Part shown: one piece after another, positions 16,812 through 57,739 of the stretch
Layout: the number at the start of each line of letters is the position of its first letter
Position numbering within the stretch: the first letter of the stretch is position 1
Assembly: GCF_018837975.1 (NCBI RefSeq)
Contig: NZ_JAGSOY010000010.1
Span: 1-64,000, forward strand
Origin: Zooshikella harenae
Lineage (GTDB): Bacteria; Pseudomonadota; Gammaproteobacteria; Pseudomonadales; Zooshikellaceae
Length of the DNA: 64,000 bases
Reading direction: 5' to 3'
Position numbers and translations under genes: made by a program
The notes under the pieces: model-generated
Told to the model about the DNA's origin: nothing
The model's input: the letters and a program-made list of their open reading frames with translations, nothing else
Database searches by the model: none

Positions 16812-16975
16812 TGCATGGGCGAATAAAGGCTGGCTATTGTCACCGAACCGTTTGCCGCAAGGATGCGGCAGCCAAGCGTCCATGGATGGATTCACAGCGT
16901 GTTCGATGACAATTGGCCAGGCTGTTATACCCTTTCCTATAAAAGCCCTTCATTTTAGGTTAAAGTTTTTCAGTA
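16812..16975 (-). repeat. Dispersed intergenic repeat, copy A (inverted orientation)
   Basis: Its core AAAGGCTGG ... TTGCCGCAAGGATGCGGCA ... GGATTCACAGCGTGTTCGA matches, on the opposite strand, the repeats at 31.3, 42.8 and 57.6 kb. It contains the hairpin TGCCGCA-AGGA-TGCGGCA. Terminal CAGGGCAAT motifs are not seen here, so the copy looks truncated or diverged. Confidence 0.75.
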
Positions 16976-24344: not shown

Positions 24345-24538
24345 AAGGTGATTTTCTTTAGAGCCGATATTTACTTTTGCTAACCTCTTCCCTGGAGACT
24401 TGGTTGCCACTTCCTTGTGGCAAACAGTTCGTTGAGCGTTATCCCACCTTTTTCAGCCAATGTTCCACATCGATAATCATGCATTGCATTGGCACAATCT
24501 TTATTCATCACAAACTATTTTTATATGCAATTGCCCTG
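24345..24538 (+). repeat. Dispersed intergenic repeat, copy B (right-end TIR present)
   Basis: It contains AAAAAGGTGATTTTCTTTAG, GGAGACTTGGTTGCC, TCCTTGTGGCAAACAGTTCG and GCGTTATCC, which match the inner part of the element at 31.3 kb. It ends in TTATATGCAATTGCCCTG, the right inverted terminus, 7 bp before the ppsA stop. The left terminus is not recognisable. Confidence 0.72.
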
Positions 24539-28534: not shown

Positions 28535-28634
28535 CCAGGGATGGTCTTCTGCTGCGGGAGGAATACATTAATTCATGCACGGCATTGGCACAGTCAATAC
28601 TTTTCTCAAATTATTTTTATATGCAATTGACCTG
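28535..28634 (+). repeat. Dispersed intergenic repeat, copy C (right-end fragment)
   Basis: AGGGATGGTCTTCTGCTGCG and GGAGGAATACATTAATT are shared with the element at 31.5 kb, and CATTGGCACA...TTTTTATATGCAATTG is shared with copy B. The right terminus reads GCAATTGACCTG (one mismatch to GCAATTGCCCTG). The inner hairpin portion is missing, so this is a fragment. Confidence 0.68.
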
Positions 28635-29779: not shown

Positions 29780-31216
29780 ATGAAGCTATACGAAAAGGTT
29801 GCAGAGGCGCTAGGTCAGCGCATTACACAGGGCTATTATCCTGATGGCTCCAAGCTTCCCTCTATAAGAAACCTCTGTAAAGATCATGGTATTAGTATTT
29901 CAACGGCTCAAGAAGCCTATCGGTTACTTGAAGAGCAAGGCATAGTTGAAGCAAGGTCTAAATCAGGTTTTTATGTTTGCCAGTCTAATAGCACACCCAG
30001 GTTGCCAGAAGTGAGTCGGCCAACCCAGCGCCCAGTTGATGTCTCCTTGTGGCATCAAGTATTGGATTTACTAACCAGTCATATTCGTCATGGACCTCAC
30101 TGGGTTCCGCTGAGTAGAGCAATGCCTGACTGTCATGTAGCTACCTTAAAGCCCCTGCTAAAAAACATGGCTATTATGACTCGGGACTCCGAAAATCTTG
30201 GTCTGGGGTATGACCAGATAACTGGCCTGGAAGAGTTAAGAGTTCAAATAACACGACAAATGATTTACTCTGGCTGTCAGCTGCACCCTGATGATATTAT
30301 TATCACCAATAGCTGCCAAGAAGCTCTTTCTATCAGTATTCGAGCTACAACTAAACCTGGTGATATCGTTGCGGTGGATTCGCCTAGCTTTTATGGTACT
30401 TTGCAGACTCTTCGATCATTACAGTTAAAAGCCTTAGAAATCCCAACTCACCCTGAAACAGGGATTAGTATTGAAGCTTTGGAGTTAGCGCTAGAACAGT
30501 GGCCTATTAAAGTCATCCAGGTCACACCAAGCGGTAATAATCCTCTTGGCTACACCATGCCAGATAATAAAAAAGAGCAACTTTATAAACTTGCTCAGCG
30601 GTTTGATATAGCAATTATTGAGGATGATATTTTTGGTGATCTTGCTTATAGCTTGCCTCGATCCCGAACTGTGAAGTCGTTTGATCAGGATGGACGAGTA
30701 CTGTTATGTAGCTCATTTTCCAAAACGATTGCACCAGGGTTTAGGTTAGGTTGGGCTGCACCAGGTCGTTACTGTGATCTCGTGACCCATATGAAGTATG
30801 TTTCCAGCGCTTGTACCGCGACACTTCCTCAATTAGCTTTAGCAAACTTTATTGCTCAAGGTGGTTATGAACGACACTTACGTAAAGTACGTCTACAGTA
30901 TAAAAAGTCACGTGATGTTATGCTGGGTTGGTTAAGTCATTACCTGCCTGAAAATATAAGAGTCAGTTATCCTCAGGGGGGCTTCTTGTTATGGGTTGAG
31001 CTACCAGAAAGAGTGGATTCGGTAGAACTTAACAAACGACTAGAATTGCAAGGTATACAAGTGGCTCCAGGAATATTGTTTTCTGCTACGGGGAAATATA
31101 GGAACTGCATTCGTATTAATTACAGTGATGAACCTTCAGCCCCGTTAGAAAGTGCAGTTAAAAAGGTTGGTGATGAAATTTTTAAAATGATAGATGAACA
31201 ACAACATCAATTTTAA
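29780..31216 (+). CDS. MocR-family transcriptional regulator (GntR HTH fused to aminotransferase domain), first copy
   Basis: The N-terminal GntR winged helix (residues about 1-66: YEKVAEALGQRITQGYYPDGSKLPSIRNLC, ISTAQEAYRLLEEQGIVEAR) is followed by a fold-type-I aminotransferase domain (about 100-470). The PLP-binding lysine lies in SSFSKTIAPGFRLGW (Lys315), with IEDDIFGD supplying the pyridine-ring Asp. Such proteins bind PLP, often sense an amino acid or aldehyde, and do not transaminate physiologically. The ATG at 29780 (MKLYEKVAEAL) fits the family; a GTG at 29762 would extend into the operator boxes. It is divergent from the LysE exporter. A second, related MocR gene lies 870 bp downstream beyond a MITE. 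Confidence 0.92.
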   Translation: MKLYEKVAEALGQRITQGYYPDGSKLPSIRNLCKDHGISISTAQEAYRLLEEQGIVEARSKSGFYVCQSNSTPRLPEVSRPTQRPVDVSLWHQVLDLLTSHIRHGPHWVPLSRAMPDCHVATLKPLLKNMAIMTRDSENLGLGYDQITGLEELRVQITRQMIYSGCQLHPDDIIITNSCQEALSISIRATTKPGDIVAVDSPSFYGTLQTLRSLQLKALEIPTHPETGISIEALELALEQWPIKVIQVTPSGNNPLGYTMPDNKKEQLYKLAQRFDIAIIEDDIFGDLAYSLPRSRTVKSFDQDGRVLLCSSFSKTIAPGFRLGWAAPGRYCDLVTHMKYVSSACTATLPQLALANFIAQGGYERHLRKVRLQYKKSRDVMLGWLSHYLPENIRVSYPQGGFLLWVELPERVDSVELNKRLELQGIQVAPGILFSATGKYRNCIRINYSDEPSAPLESAVKKVGDEIFKMIDEQQHQF

Positions 31217-31223
31217 GCTAACA

Positions 31224-31616
31224 CAGAGAGTATCAGGGCAATCGCCTATAACTTTACCTTTATAAAAGCCATTTTTTTCTAAAGCACCTTTGTCCAACGT
31301 CTGCATAACGCCCTTCGAACACGCCGTGAATCCTTCCTTGGAGGCTTGTTTGCCGCCTCCTTGCGGCAAACAATTCGATGTGCATTATCCAGCCTTTGTC
31401 TACCACTGGCGTACATCGAAATACCACAGGTGTTCATTTAATCATGATTGAGGTATAGCAAATTGTGAGTTTGCAAGTGCTTGAATTGGTTTGTGAAACA
31501 GGTGCTGGGAGCACCGTTAACAGTAGAGATCAGGGATGGTCTTCTGCTGCGGGAGGAACACATTAATTATACTCATCATGAATTATTCTTAAATGCAATT
31601 GCCCTGCAGGGAGTAT
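31224..31616 (+). mobile_element. MITE-like element with inverted termini and 10-bp target duplication
   Basis: The element (31234-31606, 373 bp) starts CAGGGCAATCGCCTATAA and ends GCAATTGCCCTG; the first 12 bp and the inverted last 12 bp agree at 11 of 12. It is flanked by CAGAGAGTAT (31224-31233) and CAGGGAGTAT (31607-31616), 9 of 10 identical, which is the footprint of transposition. It contains no ORF of transposase size. It holds the inner hairpin region TTTGCCGCCTCCTTGCGGCAAA found in the other copies. Ends beginning CAGGG and duplications of 8-10 bp are, from memory, features of ISAs1-family insertion sequences, so this is probably mobilised by such a transposase encoded elsewhere. Confidence 0.78.
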
Positions 31617-32084
31617 CTATTGTATTGCGTACTAATAATTTTACTAAATTTAACTGGAACTAGAGATCTACTTTTGTTGTATAGTTAAAATTTTCTTGAT
31701 GTTATTCTTCTTTCTTGTATTACTCAAAAACAGTCAAAGTCGTTAGGACTGTGATTAACGATTTACATTGCCAAAGTATTGGATCAACAGGTAGTATTTT
31801 ATATATAATTATTTTTCTGGCTATCAATCAATATAATATTTCTTATAAGCAAAACACTACTGTAAATTTCAATGGATGCTAATATAATGATCAGTTAAAA
31901 GTCTTTTATGAGTATAAAGTAGCCTAACGAGGACATTTCAATATTTAGATAAAAGGTAATCACTGACAAGTGTCATTCAAGTGCCTTTTAAAAGATGGAT
32001 CTAAAAAAGTTATCTTTACAAAATATAAAATTGTTTTAGTATGCCAGTTATTGATGCTTCTTTTATATAAAATGATTCGTTATC
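31617..32084. other. AT-rich leader of the second MocR gene
   Basis: Very AT-rich spacer between the MITE and the second MocR start. No ORF or hairpin of note; the box repeats found before the first MocR gene are not repeated here. Confidence 0.45.
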
Positions 32085-33518
32085 ATGGATGCAGTAAAGA
32101 AACAACCTTCTTATCTTGTGATCGCAAATGTAATCAAAGATAAAATTGCTAAAAAAGAAATTAAGCCTGGGCAAAAACTACCTTCATTAAGGACGGTGGC
32201 TAAGAACTATTCTGTTAGCTTAAATACAGTAAAATCAGCTTATGAGCACTTAGTGTCATTAGGATTAATTATTGGTGTTGAGCGATCGGGTTACATAGTT
32301 GATGCAATGCAACCTCCTTTTTTTGCATGGTTTGAGAAAGCCTCCATTTCCCAGAAAAACGATAGAATCAGTGCAGAGAAAGCATGGGCATGGTATAGAA
32401 GTTATGTGTATGAGGCTGAACAAGATACTCTAGCAGTAATTTGGCCCCACCCAAGTCTTATGCCCAATAAAGCCTTGGCAAATATTCATAGTGGCTTGCT
32501 TAAGTCCTATGGAGAAAAGATGTCTACCTATTCACATCCGAGTGGCCTAAAAGGACTTCGTGAAGCAATAAGCAATCATTTAGCTACACGACACTTTTAT
32601 TGTAATGCTGAAAATATCCAGATTACCTATGGTTGTATGCATGCTATTGAGCTTGCATTGCTATCAGTTGCAAAGGCTGGAGATGAAATTATAGTACTTA
32701 CTCCTTGTTTCCCAGGCTATATAGCTGTTTTTAATAATCTTGGTTTTAAACCTGTTGAAATACCACTCATTAGTCAAAAAATAAACTTAGAGGCATTTGA
32801 GAAAACGTTCAAGAAGACTGAAGTTAAAGCAGCAATATTGTCTTCAGTTGTCCATAATCCGACAGGATTATCCTTTAGTGAGGAGGAAAAAAAAGCAATT
32901 GCAAAACTTGCAGCTAAATATGAAAAGCCAGTTATTGAAGATGATATATTTGGTGATCTTCATTTTTCTGAAGCGACTGTAAAACCTATTGCATCCTATC
33001 CTAATGATGATTATGTTATATATTGTAGCTCATTTTCTAAGACTCTTGCTCCAGGTGAACGTATTGGGTGGTGTATTGGTGGGATGTGGCATAAAAAAAT
33101 AGCAGACAGGTTTGCATCGAGTCTATTTACAGTTAATTCAAGATCTCAATATATTCTTGCACATTACCTCAGTTCTAGTGCTTGGCCAAGACATCTGCGA
33201 AAGCTTAGGGCTGTATTATTTAAGAGAAGTAACCTCATAAGAAAACTAATTCTGGAGTACTTTCCTCAAGGAACTCAAGTTTGTTTACCTTCAGGAGGTT
33301 ACGTATTATGGATTGAATTACCTGAGTCTAATGGAGGGAGCAAGCTTTGGAAAGAAGCGATGAAACATGGAATTTATGTCTTGCCTGGGCTAACTTGCTC
33401 TGCCACTCCCTCGTACAAGAATGCTATTAGAGTAAGCTTATCCTATGATGAATCTAAAGAAGCCCATATAAAAACACATATAAAGAAACTAGCGCATTTA
33501 GCGACTCAATCAAATTAA
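32085..33518 (+). CDS. MocR-family transcriptional regulator, second copy
   Basis: The 477-residue protein has a GntR winged helix (residues about 7-72: YLVIANVIKDKIAKKEIKPG, YSVSLNTVKSAYEHLVSLG) and an aminotransferase-like domain. The PLP lysine is in SSFSKTLAPGERIGW (Lys319) and IEDDIFGD is also conserved. It is clearly a paralogue of the upstream MocR protein (same motifs around PLP, same length) but substantially diverged in sequence, so the two probably respond to different effectors or operators. No dedicated target gene is next to it; the downstream gene is a small secreted protein on the same strand. Confidence 0.9.
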   Translation: MDAVKKQPSYLVIANVIKDKIAKKEIKPGQKLPSLRTVAKNYSVSLNTVKSAYEHLVSLGLIIGVERSGYIVDAMQPPFFAWFEKASISQKNDRISAEKAWAWYRSYVYEAEQDTLAVIWPHPSLMPNKALANIHSGLLKSYGEKMSTYSHPSGLKGLREAISNHLATRHFYCNAENIQITYGCMHAIELALLSVAKAGDEIIVLTPCFPGYIAVFNNLGFKPVEIPLISQKINLEAFEKTFKKTEVKAAILSSVVHNPTGLSFSEEEKKAIAKLAAKYEKPVIEDDIFGDLHFSEATVKPIASYPNDDYVIYCSSFSKTLAPGERIGWCIGGMWHKKIADRFASSLFTVNSRSQYILAHYLSSSAWPRHLRKLRAVLFKRSNLIRKLILEYFPQGTQVCLPSGGYVLWIELPESNGGSKLWKEAMKHGIYVLPGLTCSATPSYKNAIRVSLSYDESKEAHIKTHIKKLAHLATQSN

Positions 33519-42654: not shown

Positions 42655-42689
42655 TTAGCTTATTATTTTGTTCTCAATTTCTACCTTAA

Positions 42690-42952
42690 CAAAAGCGATT
42701 TTCTTCTAAAGCACCTTTTTCAAAAACCTGCATAACGCACTTCAAACACGCCGTGAATCCTTCCGTGGAGGCTTGCTTACGGCATCCTTGTGGCAAACAG
42801 TTTGACGTGCGTTATCCAGCCTTTGCTTACCCGTGATGTACATTGATATACGACAGCTGTTTATTTAGTTGTGGTTGGGGATTGGTTTGCAGTGGTTGAA
42901 TTTGTTTGTGAAACAGGTGCTGGAAGCATCGTGGGCAGAGGCAATTACCCTG
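42690..42952 (+). repeat. Dispersed intergenic repeat, copy D
   Basis: It has the shared blocks AAAAGCGATTTTCTTCTAAA, GCATAACGCACTTCAAACAC, CGTGAATCCTTCCGTGGAGG and GGCAAACAGTTTGACGTGCG, then GTGAAACAGGTGCTGGAAGC. It ends GCAATTACCCTG, one mismatch from the right terminus of the 31.2-kb element. The left terminus is degenerate. It fills the gap between the DMT and QueC-like genes. Confidence 0.75.
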
Positions 42953-42971
42953 AGCCATGGAGCCTCTGCCA

Positions 42972-43703
42972 CTAAATTTTTGATAACAAAGGAGTAAGAA
43001 CTCGTTTTCCCCAGTATCGTAGTTTCCCCCGCCAAGGAATTCGTCGGCTTAACCCCTCTTCTATCGTATATCGACAAGGGTTACATGTACCACAAGGCTG
43101 TTGGTTGGTTAATGGTTCATGGCAAAACCAGGTCATTTCTAAAATATCTGAAAAACCACTCGATTCAGCTTGTTGGGCCATTTCCAATTTGGTGAGCTCA
43201 AATAAGGGAAAGCGAAAATAATGAAAGAGTTGATATTCTGGCGTATTTTTGAGTTGAGGATTGACTACCCAGTAAGGGCCATGTTCATCAGCCTGTTTAA
43301 CGACATAGGGCAGCAAAACATCGTGAGCCTTGTCATCTTTGTGTATTGAGAGTTCAAGGTCATGTAAATTAAGCTGGTGAGCAAACTTAGCCAGCCACTC
43401 ATATTGAGGACCAATGTATTGGCTTTTTAAAATGTCATCATAACTCTCAATTAAAGTATCAACCGATTCCACGTCATTAGCGGCTCGAAATACAGTGGGT
43501 GATAATCGTTTAGCGCTATCAGGCCACTTGTGCTGTATGGCTCGCTTTATTCGGGTCATTGTTGATAGCTCAATGCCTGTTGATGTACGGTCAGTATTGA
43601 GAATGTAGTATGGCACGACAGGTGCCGCTTTGTTGATGAGTAGATCTAATAACCGAAATGTGGAATCCCAGCCACCTGTCCAGAGCACATGATAGATAGC
43701 CAT
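42972..43703 (-). CDS. QueC-like PP-loop (N-type ATP pyrophosphatase) protein
   Basis: The 243-residue protein begins with the ATP-pyrophosphatase loop WTGGWDSTFRLLDLL (residues 8-22; variant of SGGxDST) and ends with a zinc-type cysteine set, TWFCHEPL...PCGTCNPCRYTIEEGL, four Cys as in QueC (7-cyano-7-deazaguanine synthase). It is otherwise diverged from canonical QueC, with an extended middle containing YEWLAKFAHQLNLHDLEL. No queD, queE or queF lies near, so it may act in DNA deazaguanine modification, a defence-related pathway, or as a stand-alone adenylating enzyme. Family is likely; exact reaction unknown. Confidence 0.72.
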   Translation of the reverse strand: MAIYHVLWTGGWDSTFRLLDLLINKAAPVVPYYILNTDRTSTGIELSTMTRIKRAIQHKWPDSAKRLSPTVFRAANDVESVDTLIESYDDILKSQYIGPQYEWLAKFAHQLNLHDLELSIHKDDKAHDVLLPYVVKQADEHGPYWVVNPQLKNTPEYQLFHYFRFPLFELTKLEMAQQAESSGFSDILEMTWFCHEPLTNQQPCGTCNPCRYTIEEGLSRRIPWRGKLRYWGKRVLTPLLSKI

Positions 43704-57474: not shown

Positions 57475-57735
57475 CAGGGCAATCGCATATAACTTTACCT
57501 TTATAAAAGCCATTTTTTTTTCTAAAGCACCGTCTGCATAACGCCCTTCGAACACCCCGTGAATCCTTCCTTGGAGGCTTGATTGCCGCATCCTTGCGGC
57601 AATCAGTTCGGATGTGCATTATCCAGCCTTTTTCTACCACAGGTGTTCATTTAATAATAATTGAGGTATAGCAAAATGCAGGTTTTCAAGTGCTTGACTT
57701 AGTTTGTGAAACAGGTGCCGGAAGCACCGTAAGCA
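57475..57735 (+). repeat. Dispersed intergenic repeat, copy E (left-end TIR present)
   Basis: It begins CAGGGCAATCGCATATAACT, the same left terminus as the 31.2-kb element, then has CCCCGTGAATCCTTCCTTGG and a TTGCCGCATCCTTGCGGCAA hairpin. The GTGAAACAGGTGCCGGAAGC block follows, but the right terminus is missing where the ribA fusion gene begins. The copy ends at about 57735. Confidence 0.78.
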
Positions 57736-57739
57736 TTAT

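Follow-up and report, generated by a model that had tools for sequence, protein, structure and literature searches.

A probable MITE with ISAs1-type ends in Zooshikella harenae and its cargo, a palindromic double-hairpin module

The window analysed here, a 64-kb stretch of DNA from Zooshikella harenae, contains two MocR-type genes with a 373-bp element between them (Table 1). Both genes match MocR-like families, best the PdxR-type ones, at scores under the equivalog cut-offs. In a search of named genomes the first MocR protein has relatives in Neptunomonas and Psychromonas at 54-61% identity. The distance from the stop codon of the first gene to the element is 18 bp, and that from the element to the second gene 479 bp. 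A sequence-only reading of this DNA had given the positions and letters of the element and placed it between the MocR genes, all of which proved correct on re-reading. It had also suggested that the insertion changed the expression of the second MocR gene. The location between the two genes is what favours that idea, but the second gene is almost half a kilobase away, promoter-like matches number five against a shuffle mean of 4.1 with none of them inside the element, and the one terminator-like match is weak. An altered expression of the second gene is thus highly unlikely; most likely this copy, which landed shortly after the first MocR gene, affects neither gene much.

Table 1. Features of the element and its relatives in the window
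Feature	Position	Strand	Basis or remark
Left copy of 10-bp target duplication, CAGAGAGTAT	31224..31233	.	Letters read directly, flank comparison
MITE, 373 bp	31234..31606	+	Letters, inverted ends, BLAST copies, consensus
Left inverted end of MITE	31234..31251	+	Repeat search, consensus
Right inverted end of MITE	31589..31606	-	Repeat search, consensus
Right copy of target duplication, CAGGGAGTAT	31607..31616	.	Letters, flank comparison
Palindromic double-hairpin module: outer stem, H2 and H1, GGA in both loops	31298..31399	-	R1 76.2 bits, E 2.1e-18; fold
Hairpin H2, loop AAGGAG	31348..31371	-	R1 match, fold
Hairpin H1, loop AAGGAA, bulge TTCAC	31323..31345	-	R1 match, fold
Third hairpin, loop with CAGGGATG	31521..31549	+	Fold, pairing across copies
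Stand-alone module without MITE flanks	16823..16923	+	R1 match
MITE remnant with internal deletion, 2 pieces, right end kept	24387..24538	+	
MITE right-part remnant, 2 pieces, right end kept	28536..28634	+	
Third MITE copy with module (42725-42826)	42682..42952	+	Missing at the matching place of G001
Second MITE copy with module (57532-57632)	57475..57738	+	Also present in G001

The element has the structure of a MITE. Its 12-base ends are inverted at 11 of 12 positions, as had been claimed, and a repeat search lengthens them to 18 nt at 83%. Both ends of a consensus built from 50 aligned copies read CAGGGCAATYGCATATAA; these copies were drawn from loci of the host genome (G000), loci of a second genome of the same genus (G001) and loci reached via the module described below. 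The excess of the end sequence is not a matter of chance: CAGGGCAATCGC with up to two mismatches is found 11 times in the window, where shuffles average 2.87 and none of 100 reaches that number, and the genome has 104 sites of CAGGGCAATYGC with up to one mismatch, compared with 12 for a backward-read control. The 10-bp target duplication reported earlier is borne out at nine of ten positions. A second element, at 32213-32610 of contig C168, has a 10-bp duplication that matches at 8/10. These are two of ten inward-facing end pairs in the fetched loci; the remaining eight have no clear duplication, with 6/10 as the best. Agreement at eight or more positions was seen in four of 832 combinations of a left with a right flank, including the pairs that belong to these two elements. 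There is no ORF of 80 aa or more inside 31234-31606, which agrees with the earlier statement that it holds no transposase. One of the eight pairs without a clear duplication, on contig C332, was rejected as an element, as its ends are 3461 bp apart and enclose unrelated ORFs.

Copies of the element are common in the host genome (5.91 Mb in 377 contigs). A BLAST search with the 373 bp gives at least 47 matches at no fewer than 40 places, at 75-92% identity apart from the element itself; the copy count is a lower bound, with 40 of 158 first-look candidates scored. The genome of the same genus gives 42 matches, the best at 79% identity over positions 63-350, while the three sister-genus genomes (G002-G004) and a plasmid search give none. 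Five copies or remnants lie in the window alone. The copy at 57475 has the same left junction in G001, with different internal content, and therefore predates the split of the two genomes. The copy at 42682 is missing from G001, where 49 bp stand between the matching flanks against 318 bp here; the junction is not base-exact. The joined flanks of the 31234 copy align to the sister-genus genomes no further than the end of the first MocR gene, of which G001 has no ortholog, and the flanks of the C168 copy give a single short flank match in G001. The search for genomic copies that the sequence-only reading had proposed thus found many, and its view of a non-autonomous mobile element is upheld by the number of places, the common ends, the duplication in two of ten pairs and the presence or absence of copies relative to G001. 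As a side observation, at 42920-42985 an inverted repeat that resembles a terminator, GGCAGAGGC / GCCTCTGCC, encloses the right end of the MITE; G001 has no MITE at the corresponding place and reads ACAGAGG / CCTCTGT there.

The earlier reading had also related the ends to ISAs1-family insertion sequences. A model of the ISAs1 family (NF033564) finds three fragments in the host genome, two of them over its cut-off. Contig C324 encodes the N-terminus of an ISAs1-family transposase (84.4 bits, cut-off 70). Its match begins some 160 bp inward of CAGGGCAATCGCATATAAAAATA, and this end agrees with the MITE consensus for the right end in 22 of 23 letters. Outward of this IS end the contig runs on in the right-half sequence of the MITE, which suggests that a MITE copy was the insertion site of this IS. 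Contig C8 has the same arrangement; it is truncated and its end carries two mismatches in the first 12 bases. ISAs1 elements usually make target duplications of 8-10 bp, a range that includes the duplication seen here, and like other IS-derived bacterial MITEs this one occurs in many copies without a transposase gene. Since a transposase fragment of the family sits behind the same terminal sequence in the same genome, we regard a MITE of ISAs1 type as well supported, with the relation between IS and MITE drawn from the end sequence alone. What sets the 373-bp element apart from ISAs1-family ISs is the absence of a transposase and a structured cargo that is not derived from the IS.

The proposed search for an ISAs1-type transposase with matching termini was only partly successful. 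It gave the fragments on C324 and C8, but no complete IS with both ends was found, and contig C372, which holds the best match to the family model, has no MITE-type end in the 4 kb fetched. These gaps are what one would expect if a different transposase with like ends moved the MITE, and the ISAs1 fragment were convergent or a chimera at a contig edge. Two independent fragments with a transposase start behind the MITE end, the one on C324 agreeing with the right-end consensus at 22 of 23 positions, make this very unlikely. Literature searches that combined ISAs1 with MITE or non-autonomous gave nothing usable among the matches listed; the term ISAs1 is absent from a MITE review (PMC10969869), and the available part of a Paracoccus paper (PMC3281130) has nothing on MITEs. 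A separate 24-base stretch, CCCCCTAGGAATCCATATAGAGCC, is identical in the host genome (contig C50, ~57-90; L036) and in G001 (contig C121, ~258-290; L170), adjoins IS or mobile-looking DNA in both, and is perhaps the end of some other IS.

The interior of the MITE is structured. Three other families of the order gave matches of some 30-50 bp, and these led to a repeat whose centre is constant and whose arms are specific to each copy. Of 145 genomes of the order, 38 contain the centre pattern with at most one mismatch, and none contains its backward control. We collected 83 copies of this module and picked 50, none from G000 or G001, which were aligned on the strand that carries GGA. The alignment has the architecture of a three-way junction, whose outer stem has 23 pairs and encloses the hairpins H2 and H1, and both-side changes are seen in 35 of 38 pairs. 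Pairing is found in 92.3% of cells; shuffling lowers this to 57.9% and sliding to 34-43%. The covariation score is 0.860 against 0.199 for shuffles. A measure of further pair types had no excess over shuffles (286/500).

A covariance model, R1, was built from this alignment, and thus without any sequence of G000 or G001. In the window it identifies the module of the 31234 copy on the minus strand, those of the 42682 and 57475 copies and, outside any MITE, the one at 16823-16923. It matches 23 of 30 MITE loci of the host genome at E 1e-3 or better, nine of ten G001 loci at 1e-9 or better, and at least 63 places across the host genome, where 150 of 379 candidates were scored. It gave no match in the 12 loci of relatives that are syntenic or hold MocR. 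In a survey of the class, which used stricter filters and scored no more than 17 candidates per genome, the module turned up in 43 of 229 sampled genomes, the host included, and in 37 of 196 genera. The stand-alone modules of the host genome carry other arms, so the module is an independent repeat that is nested in, or was captured by, the MITE. The sequence-only reading was right about a transposase-free MITE but overlooked its structured interior.

Some other arrangements of the module deserve mention. On contig C1 of genome G046 (94445-95605; L094) six module cores stand in tandem with a spacing of 226-229 bp. In genome G079 cores form inverted pairs with a spacing of about 250-320 bp, which recalls a larger element of two units (C5:150391-150676, C15:53417-53689, C15:57978-58288 and C17:540873-541219). 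In the host genome, two CRISPR-DR4 direct repeats score over the Rfam cut-off near a module (contig C338, 4708-4795; L217), and the stand-alone module of the window adjoins a terminator-like hairpin with a T run.

We compared the module with known RNA families and repeats. Rfam has no match in 31000-32100 of the window at E values up to 1. Of the matches in 34 other loci, the highest-scoring ones of interest are to Ysr224 (RF02770), with 37.0 bits on L154 against a gathering score of 70, and to TwoAYGGAY (RF01731), with 33.5 bits on L153 against 43; by these scores the module is formally a member of neither family. Matches to microRNAs and other eukaryotic families were hairpin look-alikes under their cut-offs and were set aside. 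TwoAYGGAY resembles the module in that it has an outer stem and, on one and the same strand, two GGA-loop hairpins, an arrangement that is present at 31298-31399 with loops that are not strictly AYGGAY. This family has been graded a probable RNA, and CsrA binding has been proposed for it, in the available portions of PMC2864571 and PMC4333381, respectively. The consensus of Ysr224, a Yersinia sRNA, includes the complement of the module core, and so differs in strand. Judged by eye, the module also resembles the Yersinia palindromic sequences, YPAL or RU-2: the RU-2 sequence printed in Table 1b of PMC2759123, a source available in part, has AAGGAT and ATGGAT loops and a TTTAC-GGCG part, with H2-type and H1-type hairpins in the same order as in the module and the core alongside them. 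According to the accessible part of PMC2229807, YPAL lacks terminal inverted repeats, makes duplications of 3-26 bp and inserts at or beside dyad symmetry, whereas the module of the host genome sits in an element with ends of its own. Searches of the literature for the letters of the module core found nothing, and in the literature searched YPAL/RU-2, TwoAYGGAY and Ysr224 were not found named together, save for YPAL with its synonym RU-2.

Does the cargo work as RNA or as DNA? If transcripts running through the MITE exposed GGA loops to CsrA/RsmA, the transcript itself might be regulated, or many copies might together titrate the protein, and the MITE would spread regulatory sites. CsrA/RsmA favours RUACARGGAUGU in hairpin loops, according to the available text of PMC7937890, and H2, H1 and the third hairpin all hold GGA in the loop of a short hairpin. 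The GGA of H2 is present in 75 of 83 modules although H2 lay outside the search pattern; H1 formed part of that pattern, which partly imposed its invariance. The host also encodes CsrA, with three of four family matches over the cut-off (C168:20020, C157:49278 and C24:88208). The covariation of the module and the proposal made for TwoAYGGAY favour an RNA as well, as does an asymmetry between the strands. On the GGA strand of the 50-copy set the outer stem has 48 G-U against 14 A-C cells, though cells do not count as independent events. An alignment of 35 matches from MITE and related loci, fitted to the model, gives G-U to A-C counts of 66/18 in the outer stem, 16/6 in H2 and 10/5 in H1, with both-side changes in 22 of 38 pairs against 9.5 in shuffles. 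The window module folds at -40.2 kcal/mol on the GGA strand and at -32.9 on its complement. The third hairpin lies on the other strand and behaves alike. The segment 31496-31562 folds at -24.0 kcal/mol on the plus strand and -15.3 on the complement. In the 28 of 50 aligned copies that are consensus-like there (22 were dropped), 304 of 335 cells pair, falling to 30-35% when slid by one or two columns and to 60-63% when slid by three. G-U outnumbers A-C by 32 to 4 on the plus strand, or by 14 to 3 without one mostly U-G pair, and at least 26 of the 28 retain an intact GGA.

Other results weigh against a working RNA. The G-U excess is missing from H2 (5 vs 6) and H1 (1 vs 1) in the between-genome set, and the loops in the window read AAGGAG and AAGGAA. 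Selection on the module within MITEs has no support: in the nine near-complete copies (L001-L009) it is better kept than positions 167-335 in three, and over 36 copies its mean difference from the other parts is 0.05 (23 of 36 positive, Wilcoxon p 0.0496), a result driven by truncated copies. Nor do the 39 modules compared with their nearest ORFs have a strand preference: both ORFs lie on the GGA strand in seven cases and both opposite in ten, nine gaps are convergent and four divergent, the rarest class, and in the rest an ORF is missing or overlaps. Literature searches on CsrA binding and MITEs gave nothing pertinent among the matches listed. CsrA/RsmA-like binding by the MITE hairpins is thus a prediction from sequence, and one that we hold to be rather doubtful. 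The module may act as DNA instead, a cruciform palindrome that is itself mobile or is an insertion target, so that the cargo of the MITE is inert or structural. Outer arms that are copy-specific and complementary over more than 20 bp would be unusual for a small RNA, the modules occur in either orientation, and YPAL is said, in the part of PMC2229807 available, to insert at dyad symmetries. The G-U bias of the outer stem on one strand does not fit this explanation, and a conserved GGA loop is hard to account for by shape alone. We consider a role as DNA quite conceivable, while stopping short of calling it likely.

Taken together, 31234-31606 is very probably a non-autonomous transposon, a MITE with ISAs1-type ends, whose cargo is a captured palindromic module that is found across the class. 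In the mechanism that we propose, an ISAs1-family transposase supplied in trans would recognise the CAGGGCAATYGCATATAA ends, and the parent IS would bear CAGGGCAATYGCATATAAAAATA at both of its ends. A staggered cut at insertion would leave the 10-bp duplication, as the common ends and the duplication itself suggest. The cargo is no transposase relic: the minus strand carries the double-hairpin module and the plus strand a hairpin of its own, and every one of these loops holds GGA. Because these hairpins lie inside the MITE, every transposition would plant them too.

Taken alone the MITE is ordinary. Its cargo brings YPAL/RU-2, TwoAYGGAY and Ysr224 together, and suggests a plausible route by which structured RNA-like repeats may multiply, as the cargo of an ordinary transposon. 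A bolder idea, which we offer as speculation and think unlikely, is that the MITEs of this family deliver CsrA/RsmA-type sites on either strand and that YPAL, Ysr224 and TwoAYGGAY are one class of element within this bacterial class, spread in part through capture by transposons. Were this true, a transcript crossing a copy in either direction would gain a GGA hairpin, the double one from the minus strand or the third from the plus strand, and dozens of copies could jointly tune the level of free CsrA. If CsrA does bind the hairpins, transposition would alter which targets a global regulator acts on.
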